DNA from: Streptomyces sp. NBC_00102
GTDB lineage: Bacteria > Actinomycetota > Actinomycetes > Streptomycetales > Streptomycetaceae
Direction: 5' to 3'
Length of the DNA stretch: 64,000 bases
NCBI RefSeq assembly: GCF_026343115.1
Contig: NZ_JAPEMC010000005.1
Location: 62,001-126,000 of the forward strand
Shown here: positions 3,536 through 38,994 of the stretch, one piece after another
Numbering within the stretch: position 1 is the first letter of the stretch
Layout: every line of letters begins with the position of its first letter
Notes under the pieces: model-generated
The model's database searches: none
Told to the model about the DNA's origin: nothing
The model's input: only the letters and a program-made list of their open reading frames with translations
Translations under genes and position numbers: made by a program

Positions 3536-3714
3536 CCGGGGTGCGGGGGCGTCAACGGCCAGGACGGAAAAGGGTTGTCGGAGATCGTCTCCGGCCCGCG
3601 CGTCCGGTCGGCCCCCGGGCGCCCGCGCCGGGACCCGGCCTTTCGGCTGCGCGCTCCGTCACCCCCGCTGACCTGGCCCGGGCCGCCGTCCGGCTATCCT
3701 GACCGGCGAACCGG

Positions 3715-3784
3715 ACACGGGGTGCCCCGCGCGGGGCTGAGAACACACCCGTCGAACCTGAACCAGCTAGTACTGGCGGAGGGA
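3715..3784 (+). ncRNA. TPP riboswitch (THI element)
   Basis: The conserved THI-box words are all present in order: GGGGTGCC near the 5' end, GCTGAGA, ACCCGTCGAACCTGA, and then CTAGTACTGGCGGAGGGA. The 3' strand of the closing helix contains the GGAGGG Shine-Dalgarno of the downstream permease. Thiamine pyrophosphate binding would therefore mask translation directly. This is a known arrangement for actinobacterial thiamine genes. Confidence 0.95.
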
Positions 3785-3792
3785 TGTCTTCC

Positions 3793-5208
3793 ATGGCGTT
3801 GCCGTACGCGCAGAACGACCGTACGACCCCGGAGCGGGACGCTCCGTACTCCTCGACCGCCTTCGGCGGCCGCATGCCCACCGCCCCGGGAGATCTGCGG
3901 ATCGAGACGCATGGGATAGCCCCCGTGCCCGAGGGCCGGCGGTACGGCGGCCCCGGCAGGCTGTTCACCGTGTGGTTCGCCCCCAACCTGACCATGACCG
4001 GTGTGTTCACCGGCACCGTCGGCATCGCGCTGGGCCTGGACTTCACCACGGCGCTCGTCGCGGTCGTCCTCGGCACACTCGTCGGGGCGGCGCCCACGGC
4101 ATACCTCGGCACCTGGGGAAGCCGGACCGGAGTCGGTCAACTTCCACTCGCGCGACTGGCGTTCGGCAGGGGAGTCGTACTGCCCGGAGCGTTGCAGTGG
4201 CTGTCCTCGATCGCCTGGGACGCGCTGATCGGCCTGTTCGGCGGGGACGCGCTGGCCCAGCTGTGCGGCTGGCCGTTCTGGCTGGGCGTCCTGGTCATGA
4301 TGGCCGCCCAGGGCGGGCTCGGTGTGCTGGGGTACGAGGCGATCCACCGGCTCCAGACCCTGATGACGTTCCTGCTGGCCGCAGCCTTCGCCGTGCTGGC
4401 CGTCAAACTGCTGGACGGTGTCCACCCCGCCGCCTCCGGTGCCGCGCACGGCGGTGACCGGGCGGGCGCCTTCGTCCTGACGTTCACGATCGCGCTGAGC
4501 CTGTCGCTGTCGTGGGCCCCGTACGCGAGCGACTTCAGCCGCTATCTGCCGACCGGTACCTCCCGGCCGCGCATGTTCTGGTGCACCCTGCTGGGCATCA
4601 GCCTCTCCTTCGTGGCGGTCCAGACGCTCGGCCTGTGGGGCGCGTCCGTCTTCACCGATCAGACCGCGCGGGGGATCGACACCCTGCTGGGCGGCGGCGC
4701 GCTCGGGGCGTTCGGTCTGCTCGCCGTCGTGCTTGCCGCGCTCTGCAGCAACGCCATGAACGACTACAGCGGCTCCCTGGCCCTGCAGACGATCGGGGTG
4801 CGCCTGCCACGCCCCGTCGCCGCCGCCCTCGCCGCCGCGCTCGGATTCCCGCTCGTGCTGTGGATGCACGCGGCCGACACCACGGCCCGGTTCCAGAACG
4901 TGCTGCTCCTGGTCGGCTACTGGATCCCCGCCTTCGTCGCGATCGTGGCGGTCGACTGGGCGGCGAGGGCCAGGGCCCGTCGCGGCGCCCCGATCGACCT
5001 CGCCGCCGAGAGCGCCCACGACCGGCCCTGGTGGCCGGCGCTCACCGCCTTCGTGGTCGCCTTCGCCGCGGCGGTCCCGTTCATGAGCACCGGCCTGTAC
5101 GTCGGCCCGGTGGCCGAGGCCCTGCACGGAGCGGACCTCGCCTACGGCGTGGCCTTCCTGGTGGCCCTGGCGGTGTACACCCCGCTGCGGCTGCCCCGGC
5201 GCTCCTGA
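3793..5208 (+). CDS. cytX: NCS1 permease, putative thiamine-precursor (HMP) transporter
   Basis: A 471-residue integral membrane protein with about 12 transmembrane segments and NCS1-family features. These include a conserved N-terminal GRLFTVWFAPNLT region, the WAPYASDFSRYLP segment, and SNAMNDYSG in the middle of the protein. NCS1 carriers move pyrimidines, purines, allantoin or thiamine precursors. The TPP riboswitch immediately upstream makes a hydroxymethylpyrimidine or related thiamine-precursor carrier (CytX type) the best call. The ATG at 3784 abuts the GGAGGG with no spacing; the in-frame ATG at 3793 has a normal 9-base spacing and is preferred. Substrate is inferred from regulation, not from residues. 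Confidence 0.88.
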   Translation: MALPYAQNDRTTPERDAPYSSTAFGGRMPTAPGDLRIETHGIAPVPEGRRYGGPGRLFTVWFAPNLTMTGVFTGTVGIALGLDFTTALVAVVLGTLVGAAPTAYLGTWGSRTGVGQLPLARLAFGRGVVLPGALQWLSSIAWDALIGLFGGDALAQLCGWPFWLGVLVMMAAQGGLGVLGYEAIHRLQTLMTFLLAAAFAVLAVKLLDGVHPAASGAAHGGDRAGAFVLTFTIALSLSLSWAPYASDFSRYLPTGTSRPRMFWCTLLGISLSFVAVQTLGLWGASVFTDQTARGIDTLLGGGALGAFGLLAVVLAALCSNAMNDYSGSLALQTIGVRLPRPVAAALAAALGFPLVLWMHAADTTARFQNVLLLVGYWIPAFVAIVAVDWAARARARRGAPIDLAAESAHDRPWWPALTAFVVAFAAAVPFMSTGLYVGPVAEALHGADLAYGVAFLVALAVYTPLRLPRRS

Positions 5209-20911: not shown

Positions 20912-22363
20912 ATGTTCAACAGGAGTGGCACCAGGTTCGGTGCGCTGATCGCGGCGTTCGTGCTTGCGGTGGTGGGTCTGGTGGCAGGTGGTGGGGTGTC
21001 GCCGGCCGTGGCCGCGACGTTGCCGGCGACGGGCGGGGTGTATCAGCTGGCGGTGACGAAGAGCGGTAAGTGCATCGATGTGCCGGCGGCTTCGGCGGCG
21101 AACGGTGCGTTGTTGCAGCAGTGGGGGTGCACCGCTGATTCGGACTGGCAGAACTTCACGCTGGCGTCGGCCGGTTCGGGGACGTACCGGCTGGTGAACG
21201 TGCACAGTGGCAAGTGCGTCGATGTGCCGGACTATTCGACGGTGTCGGGGACGCGGTTGCAGCAGTACAGCTGTGCGGGTCAGACGAACCAGGCGTGGAC
21301 GCTGGTGGCGAGCGGGTCGGGGACGTTCCAGATCGTCAACGTCAACAGTGGTCTCTGCATCAGTGACGAGGGTGCGTCGACCACGAACGGCACCGCGATC
21401 ATCCAGGAGACCTGCACCGCCAACACCAACAAGCAGTGGGCCTTCAAGCCCGTCACGACCGGGCGTACCTGGTCGGACAAGGCGGACGGCTTCGCCTCTA
21501 CCGGCGGTGGCACCACGGGCGGCGCGGCCGGTTCCACCGTCACCGTGACCACCTACGCCGACCTGGTCAAGTACGCCACCTCCAGCAGCCCGTACGTCAT
21601 CAAGGTCGGCGCCGCGATCACGGTCGACCCGTACGGCCATGAGATCCCGGTGACCTCCGACAAGACGATCGTCGGCGTCGGCACCAAGGGTGAGATCGTG
21701 CACGGCGGATTCTTCCTGGGCACCGGCGTGCACAACGTCATCATCCGAAACCTCACCATCCGCGACGCGCAGATGACCGACGACGACCCGGACGACAAGG
21801 TCTACGACTACGACGGTATCCAGATGGACACGGCCGACCACGTCTGGATCGACCACAACCGCATCGAGCGCATGAACGACGGCCTGATCGACAGCCGCAA
21901 GGACACCAGCTACCTCACCATCTCCTGGAACGTCATGGGCACCGAGAACAAGGCCCTCGGCATCGGCTGGACCGACAACGTCACCGCCCGGATGACCATC
22001 CACCACAACTGGATCCACGACACCAACCAGCGCAACCCCAGCATCGACAACGTGGCCCTCGCCCACCTCTACGACAACTACCTCCAGAACGTCACCTCCT
22101 ACGGCAACCTCTCCCGGGGGGCTTCGAAGACCGTCATCGAGAACAGCTACTTCGAGAACGTCGCCAACCCCTTCAACATCGACACCTCGGCGGCGTCCCT
22201 GACCCAGTCGGGCAGCATCATGGTCAACTGCACCGGCAAGCAGGTGACGGCCGGCACGACCTTCACCCCGAGCAGTTACTACGCGTACACCCTGGACCCG
22301 GCGAAGGACGTGCCCGCGCTGCTCAAGGAGTACGCCGGACCGCAGAGCACGATCGGCGGCTGA
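20912..22363 (+). CDS. Secreted pectate lyase (PL1) with N-terminal ricin-type lectin domain
   Basis: A 483-residue polysaccharide lyase of family 1, cleaving polygalacturonate by beta-elimination. The signal peptide and lectin module repeat those of the upstream pectinesterase. The catalytic beta-helix begins after about residue 185 and contains the family hallmarks VWIDHNRIE, the calcium-site aspartates in YDYDGIQMDTADH and DGLIDSRKDTSYLTISWN, and the conserved arginine in TNQRNPSIDNVALAHLYDNY. The ATG at 20912 follows GAGAGAAGAGGAAA. A hairpin terminator lies about 45 bases after the stop. Acting after the esterase, it would release unsaturated oligogalacturonides. Confidence 0.93.
   Translation: MFNRSGTRFGALIAAFVLAVVGLVAGGGVSPAVAATLPATGGVYQLAVTKSGKCIDVPAASAANGALLQQWGCTADSDWQNFTLASAGSGTYRLVNVHSGKCVDVPDYSTVSGTRLQQYSCAGQTNQAWTLVASGSGTFQIVNVNSGLCISDEGASTTNGTAIIQETCTANTNKQWAFKPVTTGRTWSDKADGFASTGGGTTGGAAGSTVTVTTYADLVKYATSSSPYVIKVGAAITVDPYGHEIPVTSDKTIVGVGTKGEIVHGGFFLGTGVHNVIIRNLTIRDAQMTDDDPDDKVYDYDGIQMDTADHVWIDHNRIERMNDGLIDSRKDTSYLTISWNVMGTENKALGIGWTDNVTARMTIHHNWIHDTNQRNPSIDNVALAHLYDNYLQNVTSYGNLSRGASKTVIENSYFENVANPFNIDTSAASLTQSGSIMVNCTGKQVTAGTTFTPSSYYAYTLDPAKDVPALLKEYAGPQSTIGG
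20954..21454 (+). repeat. 501-bp ricin-module repeat, copy 2
   Basis: Second copy of the repeat at 19472-19972, inside the pectate lyase gene. Homology stops sharply at both ends, where the catalytic domains differ completely. Confidence 0.85.
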
Positions 22364-22445: not shown

Positions 22446-22598
22446 CTCGTCGCCCCTCCGGTCCGGCGGGGTGGCCCGATCACCGGCCGGGCGAGGGACT
22501 GGGGCACCATGCAGGAGCGACACCCGCACGTCCGCACCCCACGACCAGGCAGGACGCGCACCACGGCCCGACCGGCACGGCCCGACCCGAGGATGAAC

Positions 22599-24128
22599 AT
22601 GGCGTACTTCGACAACCCCGTCATACCCGGCTTCAGCCCGGACCCGAGCATCTGCCGCGCGGGCGAGGACTACTACGTGGCCACCTCCAGCTTCGAGTAC
22701 GTACCGGGCGTGCCGCTGTGGCACAGCCGCGACCTCACGCACTGGCGGCTGATCGGACACGCCCTGGGCCGCCCCGGACAGCTGGAGCTTTCCCCCACCG
22801 CGCCCTCTTCCTCCGGCGTGTACGCCCCCACCCTGCGTCACCACGAGGGACGGTTCTGGATGATCACGACCGTGGTCGGCGGCGCCGGCACCCTGCTGGT
22901 GACCGCCGACGATCCGGCCGGGCCCTGGTCGGACCCCGTCCCCGTCGCGATACCCGGCATCGACCCCGACCTGGCCTGGGACGAGGAGGGCGACTGCTGG
23001 TGCCTCTTCTCGCACGACGGGATCAAGGGCGTGCGCATCGACCCGAACTCGGGTGAACTGCTGGGCGATCCGGTGGAGATGTGGTCGGGCACCGGACTGC
23101 AGTACCCCGAGGGGCCGCACCTGTACCGGATCGGCGACTGGTGGTACCTGCTGCTCTCCGAAGGCGGTACGGAACGCGGGCACGCCCTCTCGGTGGCCCG
23201 GTCCCGCACGCTGACAGGGCCGTTCGAGTCGCACCCCGACAACCCCGTGCTGTCGCACCGCAGTACGGACCATCCGGTGCAGAACACCGGCCACGGCGAC
23301 CTCGTGCAGGCCCACGACGGCAGCTGGTGGATGGTGCTCCTCGGCACCCGCCCCCGGGGTGACACCCCAGGCTTCCACGGCATGGGACGGGAGACCTTCC
23401 TCGCACCGGTGCGCTGGGAGGACGGGTGGCCGCTGCCGGGACCCGTGGAACTCCACGCCCAGGGGCCCGAGTTGACCCCGCACCCGTGGGCCGGGGAGCC
23501 CCGGCGTGACGACTTCGACGCCCCCGTCCTCGCTCCCCGGTGGGTGACCCTGCGCCGCCAGGACCCTGACGCCGTCGACCTCGGCACGAGGCCCGGGCAC
23601 GTCGTACTGAACTCCCGCGCGGACGGCCTGGACCGGCCCGGCGCCGTGTTCGTCGGGCAGCGCCAGCGCGATCCGGAATGCGTCGCGCGCACCAGGATCG
23701 ACGCCGCCGACGGCGGCCGCGGCGGACTCGCCGTACGGCTCGACGAGGCGCACCACTACCAGATCGAGCGGGAGGGCGACACCGTGCGCGCGGTCGCCCG
23801 GATCGGCCCGCTGCGCCAGTCCGTCGCCGAACGAACGGTGCCTGCAGGGCCGTTGACGCTACGCATCGACGTGACCACCGCCGACCTCCTGCCGCCCACC
23901 GTCACCGACCGACGTGCGGATCCGGCGGGCGCCGGTCTCCGCATCGGGGCCCCCGACGCCCTGCGGCTCGGATACGAGACGGAGGAGGGCGAGTTCGAGA
24001 TCCTCGCCGAACTGGACGGCCGCTACCTCACCACCGAGGTCGCCGGCGGATTCACCGGCAGGGTCCTCGGCATGTACGCGACCCGGGGCAGCGCGGCCTT
24101 CGACTGGTTCGAGCTGCGCCCCGCCTGA
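22599..24128 (+). CDS. GH43 glycoside hydrolase (beta-xylosidase/arabinofuranosidase type)
   Basis: A 509-residue intracellular enzyme (no signal peptide) of glycoside hydrolase family 43, five-bladed propeller fold. The three catalytic acids are readable: Asp15 in GFSPDPS, Asp122 in GIDPDLAWDEE and Glu171 in YPEGPH. A C-terminal beta-sandwich of about 190 residues follows (from about 310), as in the xylosidase/arabinosidase subfamilies. It probably trims short xylo- or arabino-oligosaccharides taken up by the cell, such as pectin or xylan side chains. The ATG at 22599 has GAGG at a proper distance; an ATG six bases earlier abuts the GAGG. A terminator separates it from the pectate lyase, so it has its own promoter. 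Confidence 0.9.
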   Translation: MAYFDNPVIPGFSPDPSICRAGEDYYVATSSFEYVPGVPLWHSRDLTHWRLIGHALGRPGQLELSPTAPSSSGVYAPTLRHHEGRFWMITTVVGGAGTLLVTADDPAGPWSDPVPVAIPGIDPDLAWDEEGDCWCLFSHDGIKGVRIDPNSGELLGDPVEMWSGTGLQYPEGPHLYRIGDWWYLLLSEGGTERGHALSVARSRTLTGPFESHPDNPVLSHRSTDHPVQNTGHGDLVQAHDGSWWMVLLGTRPRGDTPGFHGMGRETFLAPVRWEDGWPLPGPVELHAQGPELTPHPWAGEPRRDDFDAPVLAPRWVTLRRQDPDAVDLGTRPGHVVLNSRADGLDRPGAVFVGQRQRDPECVARTRIDAADGGRGGLAVRLDEAHHYQIEREGDTVRAVARIGPLRQSVAERTVPAGPLTLRIDVTTADLLPPTVTDRRADPAGAGLRIGAPDALRLGYETEEGEFEILAELDGRYLTTEVAGGFTGRVLGMYATRGSAAFDWFELRPA

Positions 24129-33064: not shown

Positions 33065-33177
33065 CCCCGAAGTCTCCTTCTTCCTCAACATCCCCACCTT
33101 TGATGCGAGTTGGGGATCGGGTGGCGCACCGCACCGTGGCGGCGCCCGAACACAGGCGCTATGGTCTGACCAGCATG

Positions 33178-33266
33178 ACGACGGCGCAACGGAAGTCCGG
33201 TGAGAATCCGGCACGGTCGCGCCACTGTGAACCCGTACTGCGGGAAGTCAGACCCAGCACCGTCGT
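33178..33266 (+). ncRNA. Cobalamin riboswitch
   Basis: The B12-box GCCACTGTGA is present, preceded by GGAAGTCCGGTGAGAATCCGG, the usual conserved core, and followed by GGGAAGTCAGACCC. A 7-bp closing helix pairs ACGACGG (33178-33184) with CCGTCGT (33260-33266). It sits about 46 bases before the cbtB start, so it controls the cobalt transporter genes. Confidence 0.95.
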
Positions 33267-33312
33267 CTCAGGCACCACGATCGGGACGCGTGTTCCCTCA
33301 GGAGGTTCTGCC

Positions 33313-33549: not shown

Positions 33550-34323
33550 ATGAACTCCATATCAGTCCGAGCGCTCCTGGTCCGCGGCATGCTCGCGGGC
33601 TTTCTCGCGGGCGTCGCGGCACTTCTCGTCGCCTACTTCCTCGGTGAGTCCAGGGTGGACGCGTCCATCGCCCTGGAAGAGGCCCACAGCCACGACCATC
33701 ACGGCGGCGAGGAACTCGTCAGCCGGACGATGCAGGCCACCGGCGGTCTCGCCACCGGCGTCCTCGTCTTCGGCGTCGCCGTCGGCGGCATCGCGGCACT
33801 CGTCTTCTGCTACGCCCTCGGCCGTATCGGGAGCTTCGGCCCCCGGGCCACCGCGGCCCTGGTCGCGGGGGCGGCGCTGCTGACCGTCTACCTCGTACCG
33901 TTCCTGAAGTACCCGGCCAACCCGCCGGCCGTCGGCAACCCGGACACCATCGGGCAACGTACGGGGCTCTTCTTCCTCATGGTGGCGCTCAGCGTGCTGC
34001 TCGCCGTCGCCGCCGTCATCGGCGGGAGGAGGCTCGCACCGCGCCTCGGCAACTGGAACGCGACCATCGCCGCGTCCGCGGGCTACGTCCTGCTGATCGG
34101 CCTCGCGTACGTGTTCCTGCCGTCGTTCGACGAGGTGGGCGCGGACTTCCCGGCGACCCTGCTCTGGGAATTCCGGCTCTCCACCCTCGCGGTCCAGGCC
34201 ACCCTCTGGGTGAGCTTCGGCCTGATCTTCGGTGCCCTCACCGAGCGCCTGCTGCTCCCGTCGCGGGTACGGGGCGCGACCTCCCGGGAAGGCGCTCCCC
34301 GGCCTGCCGGGGCAGTGGGCTGA
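33550..34323 (+). CDS. cbtA: Cobalt transporter CbtA
   Basis: A 257-residue membrane protein with about five or six helices, fitting CbtA. A histidine-rich loop (EEAHSHDHHGGEE, about residues 44-56) follows the first helix and could bind the metal. Later conserved pieces are PFLKYPANPPAVGNPDTIGQRTG and PSFDEVGADFPATLLWEFRL. The gene begins 21 bases after cbtB and ends before a strong bidirectional terminator, so cbtB-cbtA is a closed two-gene unit under cobalamin control. Confidence 0.94.
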   Translation: MNSISVRALLVRGMLAGFLAGVAALLVAYFLGESRVDASIALEEAHSHDHHGGEELVSRTMQATGGLATGVLVFGVAVGGIAALVFCYALGRIGSFGPRATAALVAGAALLTVYLVPFLKYPANPPAVGNPDTIGQRTGLFFLMVALSVLLAVAAVIGGRRLAPRLGNWNATIAASAGYVLLIGLAYVFLPSFDEVGADFPATLLWEFRLSTLAVQATLWVSFGLIFGALTERLLLPSRVRGATSREGAPRPAGAVG

Positions 34324-36297: not shown

Positions 36298-37545
36298 TCA
36301 GCAGGTGCCGAGGTCCTGCCAGGCACCCCATTCACCGGTGGTGCCGGGCGTCTCGTTCTGCGTCCACCACTTGGCCTTCCAGGTGTGGCCTCCGTACGAG
36401 ACGGTGTTGCCGGCGGTGTAGACGGCGCCGCTGCTCCACGCCGCCGCGGCGCAGCCGCCACCCGTCGGGGGAGTGGTGGCAGGAGTGGTGGGGGGCGTGG
36501 TCGTCGGTGTGGTCGTCGGCGGGGTGACTCCGGCGAACTTCACCGAGTACTTGGCGAAGTCCCAGTTCGACTGGGCCACGCTGCTGCACGTACCGGATGT
36601 CGTGCCGTTGTTGTCGGGCGGGGTGCACTGGCGGTCGCGGTTGAGGGACCAGAACGTGAAGCGGTCCATGTGGTGGCTGGTCGCGTAGTCCAGAACCGTC
36701 TGGAAGTCGGCCTGAGTGAAGTACTCGCCGGTGTCGCTGCGGCCGTTCATCCCGGAGAATCCCTGGTGCGCGTAGGCGGTCGCCGCGTCCCAGCCGAAGG
36801 TGGACTGCAGGATGGAGTTGAAGTTCGTCAGGGCGCTCGTCTGCGCGGCCGCGCCGTTGAACCCGCCGTCGAAGGGCATGATCGAGAAGTTGTTCGGCGT
36901 GAAGCCCTGCGCCTTGGCCTCGTTGAGCATCTGCTTGCCGAACCAGCCGGTTCCGTCGGCCGTTCCCGCGGTGGTGACCGAGACGTAGAGTCCCGGGTTG
37001 TTCTGCTGGAGAATCTTGGCCGCGCCGATCTCATGGGCGATGGCGGTCGCGTTCTCGTACTCCGGCTCCTCCAGGTCGAAGTCGATGGCCTTCAACTGGT
37101 ACTTCGTGATGACCTGCTGGTAGGCGGCCGCGGTGGACGCCGCGTCGGAACAGGCCTGGCCGAGCTTGGTTCCCCCGTACCCGCCGATGGAGACCGACAC
37201 GTCGCCGCCCTTGGCGCGGATCGCGCTGACGACCGACCCCACCGCGGTGTCCGACGAGACCGGTGACGTCCCGTCCCACGTCGGACTGCAACCGCCCCCG
37301 TTGGGAGCGAGGACGAACGCCAGCTGGAACGCCTTGAGCCCGGTGGCGTCCATGATGGCGCCCGCGTCCGGCGGGTTGTTGTCGTGCGGCATCAGGTAGG
37401 GCGCGGCGGCGTACCACCGGTTGCTGAGGGCGGCGTTGGCGGCGGCGGACGCACCCGAAGCCTGCTGCGCGGTGAACGCCGCGAGTCCGGCGGTGGCCAG
37501 TGCCGCGGTCGCGGCACCGCAGAGCAGAGCGCGAAGACGCTTCAT
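36298..37545 (-). CDS. Secreted GH18 chitinase with C-terminal chitin-binding domain
   Basis: A 415-residue enzyme with a Sec signal (MKRLRALLCGAATAALATAGLAAF...). The GH18 domain carries the catalytic DxDxE motif as AIDFDLEEPE and the usual SIGGYGG strand before it. A Thr/Pro linker leads to a CBM5/12 chitin-binding domain (AAWSSGAVYTAGNTVSYGGHTWKA..., about 365-415). It degrades chitin outside the cell. CAGGAG precedes ATG 37545. A DasR-responsive element lies about 60 bases upstream of the start, as is known for Streptomyces chitinase genes, so it should be induced when N-acetylglucosamine-derived phosphosugars release DasR. Confidence 0.93.
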   Translation of the reverse strand: MKRLRALLCGAATAALATAGLAAFTAQQASGASAAANAALSNRWYAAAPYLMPHDNNPPDAGAIMDATGLKAFQLAFVLAPNGGGCSPTWDGTSPVSSDTAVGSVVSAIRAKGGDVSVSIGGYGGTKLGQACSDAASTAAAYQQVITKYQLKAIDFDLEEPEYENATAIAHEIGAAKILQQNNPGLYVSVTTAGTADGTGWFGKQMLNEAKAQGFTPNNFSIMPFDGGFNGAAAQTSALTNFNSILQSTFGWDAATAYAHQGFSGMNGRSDTGEYFTQADFQTVLDYATSHHMDRFTFWSLNRDRQCTPPDNNGTTSGTCSSVAQSNWDFAKYSVKFAGVTPPTTTPTTTPPTTPATTPPTGGGCAAAAWSSGAVYTAGNTVSYGGHTWKAKWWTQNETPGTTGEWGAWQDLGTC

Positions 37546-37621: not shown

Positions 37622-37697
37622 GCCCTCTTTTGAAGTTTGAAGATTGCCCCTGGTGGCCCGGGCTCCGCGCTTGCGAACTCCAGGGGTCATGAAAAGA

Positions 37698-37728
37698 AGC
37701 CCCGTTCCTGGTGACCAGGAACGGGGCT
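37698..37728 (-). terminator. Intrinsic terminator after the tRNA-like gene
   Basis: A perfect 14-bp stem (AGCCCCGTTCCTGG and its complement) with a 3-base loop is followed on the minus strand by TCTTTTC. It starts two bases after the encoded CCA of the tRNA-Gly-like gene. Confidence 0.9.
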
Positions 37729-37730
37729 GG

Positions 37731-37803
37731 TGGAGCGCTGGGCAGGCCTTGCACCTGCATTTCCCCGCGGGAAGCGGGGCGTCTTTCCTTGGACGACCAA
37801 CGC
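37731..37803 (-). tRNA. tRNA-Gly(UCC)-like gene with non-canonical T-loop
   Basis: The 73-nt minus-strand sequence folds as a full cloverleaf. Acceptor GCGTTGG pairs with CCAGCGC, the discriminator is U and CCA is encoded. The D-arm is a 3-bp stem (GTC/GAC) with GG in its loop. The anticodon arm is CCCCG-CTTCCCG-CGGGG with anticodon UCC. The variable loop has 4 nt, and the T-arm is GCAGG-TGCAAGG-CCTGC. Glycine identity features (G1-C72, C2-G71, U73, anticodon CC) are present. The T-loop reads TGC instead of TTC. The same GUGC change was reported for the peptidoglycan-dedicated tRNA-Gly of Staphylococcus epidermidis, where it weakens use in translation. It has its own promoter and terminator. 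Confidence 0.85.
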
Positions 37804-37845
37804 GCGGGCACCGTACCGCCGGAGCGGACCGCGCCTTCAAGATCA

Positions 37846-37874
37846 ACTATAGCCCGGATCCGCCGGAGTTCCAA
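37846..37874 (-). promoter_or_regulatory. Promoter of the tRNA-like gene
   Basis: On the minus strand TTGGAA (37874-37869) is separated by exactly 17 bases from TATAGT (37851-37846). Both are near the housekeeping sigma consensus. The predicted start gives a leader of about 35 nt before the tRNA. Confidence 0.7.
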
Positions 37875-37932: not shown

Positions 37933-38994
37933 TCAGCCGCGCGCGAGGGCGATCGAACCCTGGAGCCGCTCGCCCGCCTCGTAGATCATGTACGGCACGC
38001 CGTGGTCGGTCCCGAAGCTCGGTGAGGCGCTGCGGCCGTTCTCGGGTGCCGCGGTGCCCGAGTCGTAGAAGACGCCGAGGTGGTCGCGGCGGCCGAAGTC
38101 GTTGCCGACCTCGGTGATCATCAGATTGCCGCCGCTCTCCTTGTCGGTGTTGTAGACGACGTACGTGCTCCCGTTCCGGCTCAGCAGGTGCGGGCCGCCG
38201 ACGTTGACCGCGCCGACGTCGGTGTGGCGTACGAGCGGCTGCTGGTCGAAGGTCCAGTCCCGGCCGTCCTTCGACCAGCCCCAGGCGATGTCGCGGTGGT
38301 TGGACTGGTTGTTGAGCATGAAGAGCATCACGTAGCGCGCACCGCGCGCGGGCAGGTCGTGCCGGAAGACGCGGGCGTACGAGGTCTCGGTGCTGCCCGT
38401 CGGCATCATCGCGGTGGTGAGCACCACCTTGTCGTAGGTGAAGGTGATGCCGTCCTTGGAACGGGCGAGCCGGGTCGTGCTGTTCTCGCCGTGGAAGTAG
38501 AGCCAGAGTTCCTTGACGTCCTCGTTCCAGAGGACGTGCGGGGAGGCGACGTGGCTGACCTTGTAGTGCGGCTGCCAGTCGTTGGGGACGATCGGGTTGG
38601 CCGGGTACTCGGTGAACGGGCCTTCCAGCGAGTCGCCGTAGGCCAGGCAGATCCCGCCGGGGGCGTCGTGCGGACCGTAGTAGAGGTAGTAACGGCCCAG
38701 CGGACTCGACAGCTTGTCGTAGACCCCCCTGATGCACGGGAAGATGATCTCGCCCGTCGGGTTGTACTTCAGCCGGGAGGGCGTCAGAAGCGTCCTCACG
38801 TAACGGTAGTCGGGGAATCCTCCGGGTGCCGCCGCGGCGGCGCTCCCGGTGGCGGCGCCGGTGGCGATCATTCCGGCGGCCCCGGCGGCCCCGGCGACCG
38901 CGCCCCGCAGGAAGATCCTCCTGGTCGGCCGCAGCGCCTCCGAAAAGGCGGGCTGCGGGTCCGGCCGGCGTGCCTCGTGCTCGTGCTGTGTCAT
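37933..38994 (-). CDS. Tat-exported five-bladed beta-propeller glycosidase-like protein
   Basis: A 353-residue protein with a twin-arginine signal (PTRRIFLRGAVAGAAGAAG, about 23-41). The mature part has the repeated pattern of GH32/43/117-like five-bladed propellers: GRYYLYYGPHDAPGGICLAYGDSLEGPFTEYPANPIV, then SHVASPHVLWNEDVKELWLYFHG, and GPHLLSRNGSTYVVYN. I cannot place it in a specific GH family or identify all catalytic acids. It is the last gene of the leftward operon headed by the LacI regulator, 51 bases after the permease gene. It would act outside the cell before uptake by that permease. Confidence 0.75.
   Translation of the reverse strand: MTQHEHEARRPDPQPAFSEALRPTRRIFLRGAVAGAAGAAGMIATGAATGSAAAAAPGGFPDYRYVRTLLTPSRLKYNPTGEIIFPCIRGVYDKLSSPLGRYYLYYGPHDAPGGICLAYGDSLEGPFTEYPANPIVPNDWQPHYKVSHVASPHVLWNEDVKELWLYFHGENSTTRLARSKDGITFTYDKVVLTTAMMPTGSTETSYARVFRHDLPARGARYVMLFMLNNQSNHRDIAWGWSKDGRDWTFDQQPLVRHTDVGAVNVGGPHLLSRNGSTYVVYNTDKESGGNLMITEVGNDFGRRDHLGVFYDSGTAAPENGRSASPSFGTDHGVPYMIYEAGERLQGSIALARG

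Follow-up and report, generated by a model that had tools for sequence, protein, structure and literature searches.

A conserved family of tRNA-Gly(UCC)-like genes in Streptomyces that is probably set aside from translation

The window, by which we mean the whole stretch of 64,000 nucleotides (nt) analysed here (C5:62001-126000 of the 12-contig, 8.6-Mb genome of Streptomyces sp. NBC_00102), contains a cloverleaf that is a real, highly conserved tRNA gene. Its features suggest that it is a tRNA-Gly(UCC)-like element which has, with good probability, been withdrawn from translation to serve as an amino-acid donor, its glycine probably going to a different enzyme, for instance a ligase of the cell wall. 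Non-proteinogenic tRNA-Gly is already known in staphylococci; as far as our searches show, what is new is a family in actinobacteria that has spread as an accessory, multi-copy and also plasmid-borne element, together with a form without a standard anticodon loop. The portions of the literature covered by our search did not describe a tRNA of this type from Streptomyces, and a description may exist elsewhere.

A tRNA-Gly-like gene on the minus strand

Read directly from the minus strand (37803..37731), the 73-nt element forms a complete cloverleaf: GCGTTGG TC GTC CAAGGAAA GAC G CCCCG CTTCCCG CGGGG AAAT GCAGG TGCAAGG CCTGC CCAGCGC T CCA. The acceptor stem has 7 bp (GCGTTGG/CCAGCGC, with one G-U pair) and is followed by discriminator U73 and an encoded CCA; the D, anticodon and T stems have 3, 5 and 5 bp. 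The anticodon loop, CTTCCCG, presents UCC together with U33 and C37, and the T arm (GCAGG TGCAAGG CCTGC) has the loop TGCAAGG, which places a G at position 55 (GUGC). With a variable loop of AAAT, a D arm that keeps G18G19 and the potential tertiary pairs U8-A14 and A15-U48, the molecule would be compatible with a normal L-shape. The initial annotation had claimed a glycine tRNA with this anticodon, CCA, U73, acceptor pairs and TGC T-loop; all of these are found as described, on the minus strand, which it had not specified. The features of the locus are collected in Table 1.

Table 1. Features of the element and its putative transcription unit in the window
Feature	Position	Strand	Basis
tRNA-Gly(UCC)-like gene, 73 nt	37731..37803	-	Direct reading, family conservation, covariation
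-10 box TATAGT, then family motif TGATCTTGA	37846..37851	-	Direct reading; TANNNT similarly spaced in 69 copies
Possible -35 box TTGGAA, 17 bp from -10	37869..37874	-	Direct reading; family position table
Predicted precursor 5' leader, start inferred from -10 box; hairpin in fold	37804..37839	-	Inference
Intrinsic terminator: 14-bp stem, TCA loop, then TCTTTT	37692..37728	-	Direct reading, fold, family hairpin

Automated tRNA detection, which had been proposed as a check, gave a divided answer. For the window copy it was silent: ARAGORN over the window returned a tRNA-Arg elsewhere as its sole call, Rfam at gathering thresholds called two riboswitches and not the element, an RF00005 search of the element's segment gave no match at E≤10, and the element is missing from the 67 RF00005 matches found across its own genome. 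On short excerpts, ARAGORN called tRNA-Gly(tcc) for 57 of 69 relatives and overlooked 12, so the family is hidden only partly from standard tools.

A conserved core in a putative separate transcription unit

A 191-nt query found matches at E≤1e-3 in 171 of 295 same-genus genomes, 156 of them at E≤1e-8; these 156 were taken by E value rather than inspected singly, and type B-like relatives (see below) may be among them. The remaining 15 genomes (E from 1e-8 to 1e-3) were excluded from the comparison of presence and absence, which thus sets 156 genomes with the element against 124 without. Many matches are limited to the 73-nt element, with flanks that appear unrelated, and across 30 loci the core is 92-100% identical between seemingly unrelated flanks.

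We call this form type A. The set used here comprises 69 distinct copies with sufficient flank, representing 18 distinct 71-nt cores, and excludes three matches that are one base shorter (type B) as well as copies close to locus ends. Every copy carries the T-loop TGCAAGG (G55) and the UCC anticodon; the anticodon loop reads CTTCCTG in 57 and CTTCCCG in 12, with a pyrimidine at position 37 in all. The D arm occurs as GTCCAAGGAAAGAC (67 copies) or GTCTAAGGAAAGAC (2 copies), always keeping AAGG. U73 and C74 are likewise present in 69/69, and full CCA is encoded in 31/69. That conservation stops near the discriminator while CCA varies would fit a tRNA matured by the CCA enzyme.

Covariation argues for the same structure. 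Among 24 relatives (14 type A, 4 type B, 2 intermediate and 4 type D), 94.8% of cells were paired, and nine pairs and 40 cells had changed on both sides; shuffles gave 5.1 pairs and 9.2 ± 3.3 cells, none of 500 reaching the observed signal, and slid structures gave at most 2 and 5. Type B is off by one column in the anticodon stem of this alignment, which lowers the score. The 16 closest sequences (type A) taken alone gave a weaker signal, reached by 13 of 500 shuffles, because these sequences hardly vary. Conservation of the arms across species, on which the original proposal had been made to depend, is thus borne out by core identity, T-loop and covariation together.

A promoter and terminator of its own had also been claimed for the element, and family-wide comparison agrees. 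The window copy has a promoter-like TTGGAA-N17-TATAGT and, downstream, a T-rich tail after the 14-bp terminator hairpin. Comparison of the 69 type A copies places the end of a TANNNT box 37-52 nt upstream (at 41 nt in 27 of them), often with TGCGn before it and TGATCTTGA behind it; the box was chosen by a score rewarding TANNNT and a following GATC, so both are partly selected for. No TTGACA-like -35 consensus occurs at this place across the 69 copies. For a segment of 50 nt downstream, a fold of -20 kcal/mol or better is obtained in 68 of 69 copies, as against 26 of 69 for the control flank. Together these signals suggest that the element would be transcribed as its own unit. The stretch TGATCTTGA sits around the expected transcription start and is conserved upstream of the 69 type A copies; we know of no regulator for it.

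The silence of ARAGORN and Rfam in the window is what a pseudogene or a chance fold would lead one to expect. Given a conserved core between diverged flanks, the covariation, and a promoter and terminator, we regard that explanation as extremely improbable.

Accessory distribution on chromosomes and plasmids

In a class-wide sample of 394 genomes from 137 genera, matches of at least 81 bits were confined to the same genus, and the best match elsewhere scored 40.1 bits. Among 200 genomes of the family, the element was found in two of another genus (G745, 98.9 bits; G755, 101 bits), with diverged forms in G676 (75 bits) and G739 (63.5 bits). Of the R1 matches of 33-40 bits that the class sample gave outside the family, ARAGORN was applied to five (L096, L099, L100, L101 and L102, leaving L097 and L098) and identified these as ordinary tRNA-Arg. 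The window genome has a single copy, and others have up to five (G095) or six (G804). Carriers of a strong match have larger genomes (8.99 vs 8.02 Mb, p=6e-10).

Plasmids carry the element as well: 68 of 72,556 records match, 66 from Streptomyces and two from Streptantibioticus, and one S. clavuligerus plasmid record has up to eight matching places. The table of plasmid matches contains no RNA genes and is silent on whether the tRNA was annotated. A phage origin was discarded after a search of 50,697 phage records returned no match.

The surroundings of the element are diverse. The 145 loci compared by shared neighbours fall into 79 context groups, a number that may be slightly inflated because grouping relied on two shared proteins of >70% identity and many loci span 8 kb; by nearest genes, 150 loci fall into 93 groups. 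No neighbour gene was shared in 20 contexts of 20 kb and 20 kb of the window, or across the 145 loci, with open reading frames (ORFs) taken from our own GC-based script rather than a published caller. Recurring neighbour families were all generic (ABC ATPase, LysR, MFS, SDR and similar). A PADLOC and Pfam scan covered 150 of 159 nearest genes and 124 farther genes. PADLOC gave 90 and 46 families for the two sets, and in the first 25 of each no family had more than one hit among the nearest genes or more than two among the farther ones; this is a tally rather than a formal enrichment test. The lack of a shared neighbour suggests that the RNA most likely acts in trans. In the window, the element lies between genes for a CBM5/12-domain protein (36298-37545, minus strand) and a protein with a sub-threshold GH43 match (37933-38994, minus strand). 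On a 66-kb Streptomyces phaeochromogenes plasmid (L320, NZ_CP108691.1), the type A copy (record positions 22253-22323) adjoins DUF2397/DUF2398/DUF2399 genes of a Wadjet operon (JetA and JetB families), a single case.

Glycine identity bases with altered anticodon and T loops

The genome that harbours the element also encodes canonical glycine tRNAs, which ARAGORN, run around the RF00005 matches (65 tRNAs), resolved as one UCC, one CCC and three GCC. The situation that the initial annotation had envisaged as forcing the element into translation, the absence of a canonical tRNA-Gly(UCC), therefore does not arise: the canonical gene coexists with the element, which is thus not needed for decoding. 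The two share UCC, G1-C72, C2-G71 and U73 but are equal in 41 of 74 columns, the canonical tRNA (L045) having the T-loop TTCGATT and A37 in the loop CTTCCAA.

What glycyl-tRNA synthetase (GlyRS) recognizes is largely retained. According to PMC9976931, the glycine identity set includes G1-C72, C2-G71, C35, C36, U73, G10 and C50-G64. The first five are present in the window copy and in all 69 copies, and G10 and C50-G64 are also kept in the element; U16 of the T. thermophilus identity set is missing. GlyRS is encoded by a single gene in 40 of 40 genomes, and a second GlyRS was accordingly rejected as a partner.

The marks of a translational tRNA are absent from two loops: U54-U55-C56 of the T-loop gives way to G55, and purine 37 to a pyrimidine, each in 69/69, while type A itself keeps U33 and a 7-nt loop. 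C32 and G38 could pair in 69/69 type A copies, in the type B and type D sequences seen and in 19 of 20 type C sequences. The earlier suggestion that Streptomyces conserves an extra GUGC tRNA-Gly holds, with TGCAAGG throughout type A and the element in 156 of 295 genomes. From these features, the element would be expected to be glycylated, and to be used poorly by both EF-Tu and the ribosome.

In Staphylococcus epidermidis, glycine tRNAs reserved for peptidoglycan are said to carry the GUGC change and to bind EF-Tu poorly. Type A shares this T-loop and, like the staphylococcal cell-wall tRNA-Gly, consists of extra isoacceptors beside canonical ones. The passages of PMC2630981, PMC4052509 and PMC4307249 covered by our search contain no text supporting the S. 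epidermidis statement. Further likenesses come from published features rather than from a sequence alignment. Pyrimidine 37, which PMC2630981 notes in seven S. aureus and S. epidermidis tRNA-Gly and ties to cell-wall use, is found in 69/69 type A copies. Weak EF-Tu binders of S. aureus have, according to PMC4052509, A51-U63, A49-U65 and UU or CU replacing G18G19; type A shares A51-U63 but has G-C at 49-65 and an intact G18G19 (AAGG in 69/69). Unlike the staphylococcal tRNAs, type A is accessory, multi-copy and also plasmid-borne, and has diverged sister forms.

Sister forms of the element

In type B, found as five copies in G786 and one in G676, the loop of the anticodon hairpin is 6 nt long (CAGCCG or CAACCG), lacks U33 and could close to 4 nt, yet CC, the acceptor ends, U73 and TGCAAG are retained. 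Matches of 94-97% occur on plasmids of S. decoyicus, S. angustmyceticus and S. aureoverticillatus. A tRNA that lacks a standard anticodon loop and keeps glycine identity argues for a function other than decoding, and we consider this the best evidence on the point. It also bears on the alternative of an ordinary additional translational tRNA-Gly(UCC) with an odd T-loop. An intact cloverleaf, UCC with U33, U73 and the 57 of 69 relatives accepted by ARAGORN as tRNA-Gly(tcc) are all in keeping with that alternative; the canonical UCC gene and its 41 of 74 equal columns, the invariant pyrimidine 37 and G55, and type B itself make it quite unlikely.

Type C is present in the same genome (C1:3145989-3146063; L055:101-175), with UCC, U73, GUGC and a bulged base in the T arm. 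In a class sample of 296 genomes, all 28 from the same genus contain it with a score of 95 bits or more, the next best match elsewhere reaching 73.7 bits. In 20 of 20 loci it lies directly upstream of tRNA-Gly(GCC) and encodes no CCA, and ARAGORN overlooks it in 19 of 20. Types A and C have UCC, U73, GUGC, C32 and G38 in common (the last two in 19 of 20 type C sequences). Type C differs in its bulged T stem, its fixed locus, its lack of encoded CCA, its universal presence, the absence of any match among plasmid records, and A37, which leaves it without the staphylococcal pyrimidine-37 mark. Because of its universal distribution, type C would be a better candidate than type A for a housekeeping peptidoglycan tRNA.

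Type D has the acceptor ends and U73 of type A with a UUC anticodon. It occurs at L142:2045-4919 and L155:2024-5101, where two genomes each have three copies within about 3 kb, and at L156:2033-2105 and L143:1952-2024; the T-loop begins TGC in L142, L155 and L156 and TTC in L143. A 105-nt R1 match of 36.5 bits at L151:2042-2146 (G192) shares its ends with type A but is interrupted by a long insert in the variable or T region, and may be either a decaying copy or another form.

Somewhat short of an even chance, in our estimate, is the broader proposition that Streptomycetaceae possess a radiating tRNA family (A, B, C and D) that has left translation to form a separate pool of activated glycine for one or more non-ribosomal transferases. 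Such a family would include forms without a usable anticodon loop and stand-alone units on chromosomes and giant plasmids, and type D might serve a second amino acid.

Possible consumers of the glycine

We give about even chances to the following explanation: type A is a GlyRS-charged tRNA-Gly that is kept off EF-Tu and the ribosome and supplies glycine to a transferase in trans, with FemX as its main consumer. The cell's single GlyRS would charge the element, whose identity bases are kept. G55 and A51-U63 in the T arm, together with pyrimidine 37 and the possible C32-G38 pair, would hold it off EF-Tu and the ribosome, and the glycine would pass to a Gly-tRNA-dependent non-ribosomal transferase acting in trans. 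The likeliest consumer would be FemX, the glycyl ligase of peptidoglycan and the sole known consumer that every sampled host possesses; PMC4052509 lists FemX and VanK of S. coelicolor among the enzymes that use aminoacyl-tRNA. The element would then supplement the universal GUGC tRNA-Gly, type C, as an accessory and portable gene, and the extra copies in about half of the species could provide supply in larger genomes, meet special conditions or serve another consumer.

The stronger claim of the initial annotation, a dedicated cell-wall tRNA, is not well supported: FemAB (PF02388) is present in 295 of 295 Streptomyces genomes and type C in 28 of 28, the element in 156 of 295, and FemAB number does not track it. 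The mean was 1.87 genes in the 156 genomes with the element and 1.79 in the 124 without (p=0.64; logistic model with genome size, z=-1.7), and at least two genes were found in 14 of 20 genomes with it (only one in 6 of 20) and in 10 of 20 without. FemAB number was therefore rejected as a co-occurring partner in both the 20+20 and the 295-genome comparison. The choice of FemX as consumer has to be weighed against the roughly half of species that have FemAB and no strong match, and against the possibility that type C could supply FemX alone. The window genome has two FemAB genes, one near ORFs taken by eye as ssb, rpsF and alanine racemase. The other, an accessory gene on C4 (L313:3237-6025), lies beside a MurJ-type flippase gene and two-component-like genes, perhaps a cell-wall resistance cluster.

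The glycine might instead go to a different consumer, which we think rather unlikely; this would be either a Gly-tRNA-dependent enzyme with a GNAT fold that works in specialised metabolism, or a transferase that has yet to be described. Gly-tRNA users have been published for Streptomyces, namely Orf11 (BD-12) and DhpK (dehydrophos) (PMC12945691), and the accessory distribution, larger genomes and giant plasmids would suit such a role. In an exploratory comparison of 20+20 genomes, one of several families tried and with statistics that ignore kinship, PF13480 (GNAT) matches averaged 8.75 with the element and 5.2 without (p=1e-4); the excess persisted when genome size entered the model (t=2.5) and when FemAB genes were subtracted (t=2.8). 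This excess lowers the odds of FemX and gives a lead towards consumers that have a GNAT fold and do not belong to FemAB. Against such a consumer, no gene of this kind recurs next to the element. The lantibiotic dehydratase family PF04738, rejected as a partner, is no commoner with the element (13/20) than without it (15/20).

A further reading dispenses with glycine donation and makes the element a regulatory or decoy RNA that binds a tRNA-targeting nuclease, a Gly-tRNA-acetylating toxin or a sensor. Extreme conservation, several copies and plasmid carriage would suit a decoy, and a tRNA-like regulatory element, tRNA-Other of B. cereus, is described in PMC3399842 as outside translation and linked to cell wall and resistance. 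tRNA-Other belongs to a larger regulatory RNA encoded at a single island, whereas the Streptomyces element is compact, ends in a terminator of its own and occurs at many loci. Types A and B retain the GlyRS identity bases, no T-box (RF00230) exceeded the cut-off in 40 genomes, and defence genes offer one Wadjet neighbour and PADLOC families that match singly in the top 25 entries of each list (90 and 46 families). We judge this reading unlikely.

To our knowledge, the reservation of aminoacyl-tRNA for cell-wall or antibiotic synthesis has been little explored beyond staphylococci. In Streptomyces, the main genus of antibiotic producers, a tRNA-Gly that is conserved and apparently dispensable is open to deletion and assay, and type B offers a natural separation-of-function variant. 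Counts of tRNA-Gly(UCC) genes in Streptomyces may mix translational and non-translational genes.

Other RNA calls in the window

The tRNA-Arg(ccg) that ARAGORN calls at 23917-24015 lies within a long ORF (22593-24128, plus strand), is not among the RF00005 matches in C5 and is probably a false call. The two riboswitches exceeding Rfam thresholds are a TPP riboswitch at 3708-3801 and an AdoCbl riboswitch at 33164-33309, the latter upstream of a membrane-protein ORF (33589-34323).
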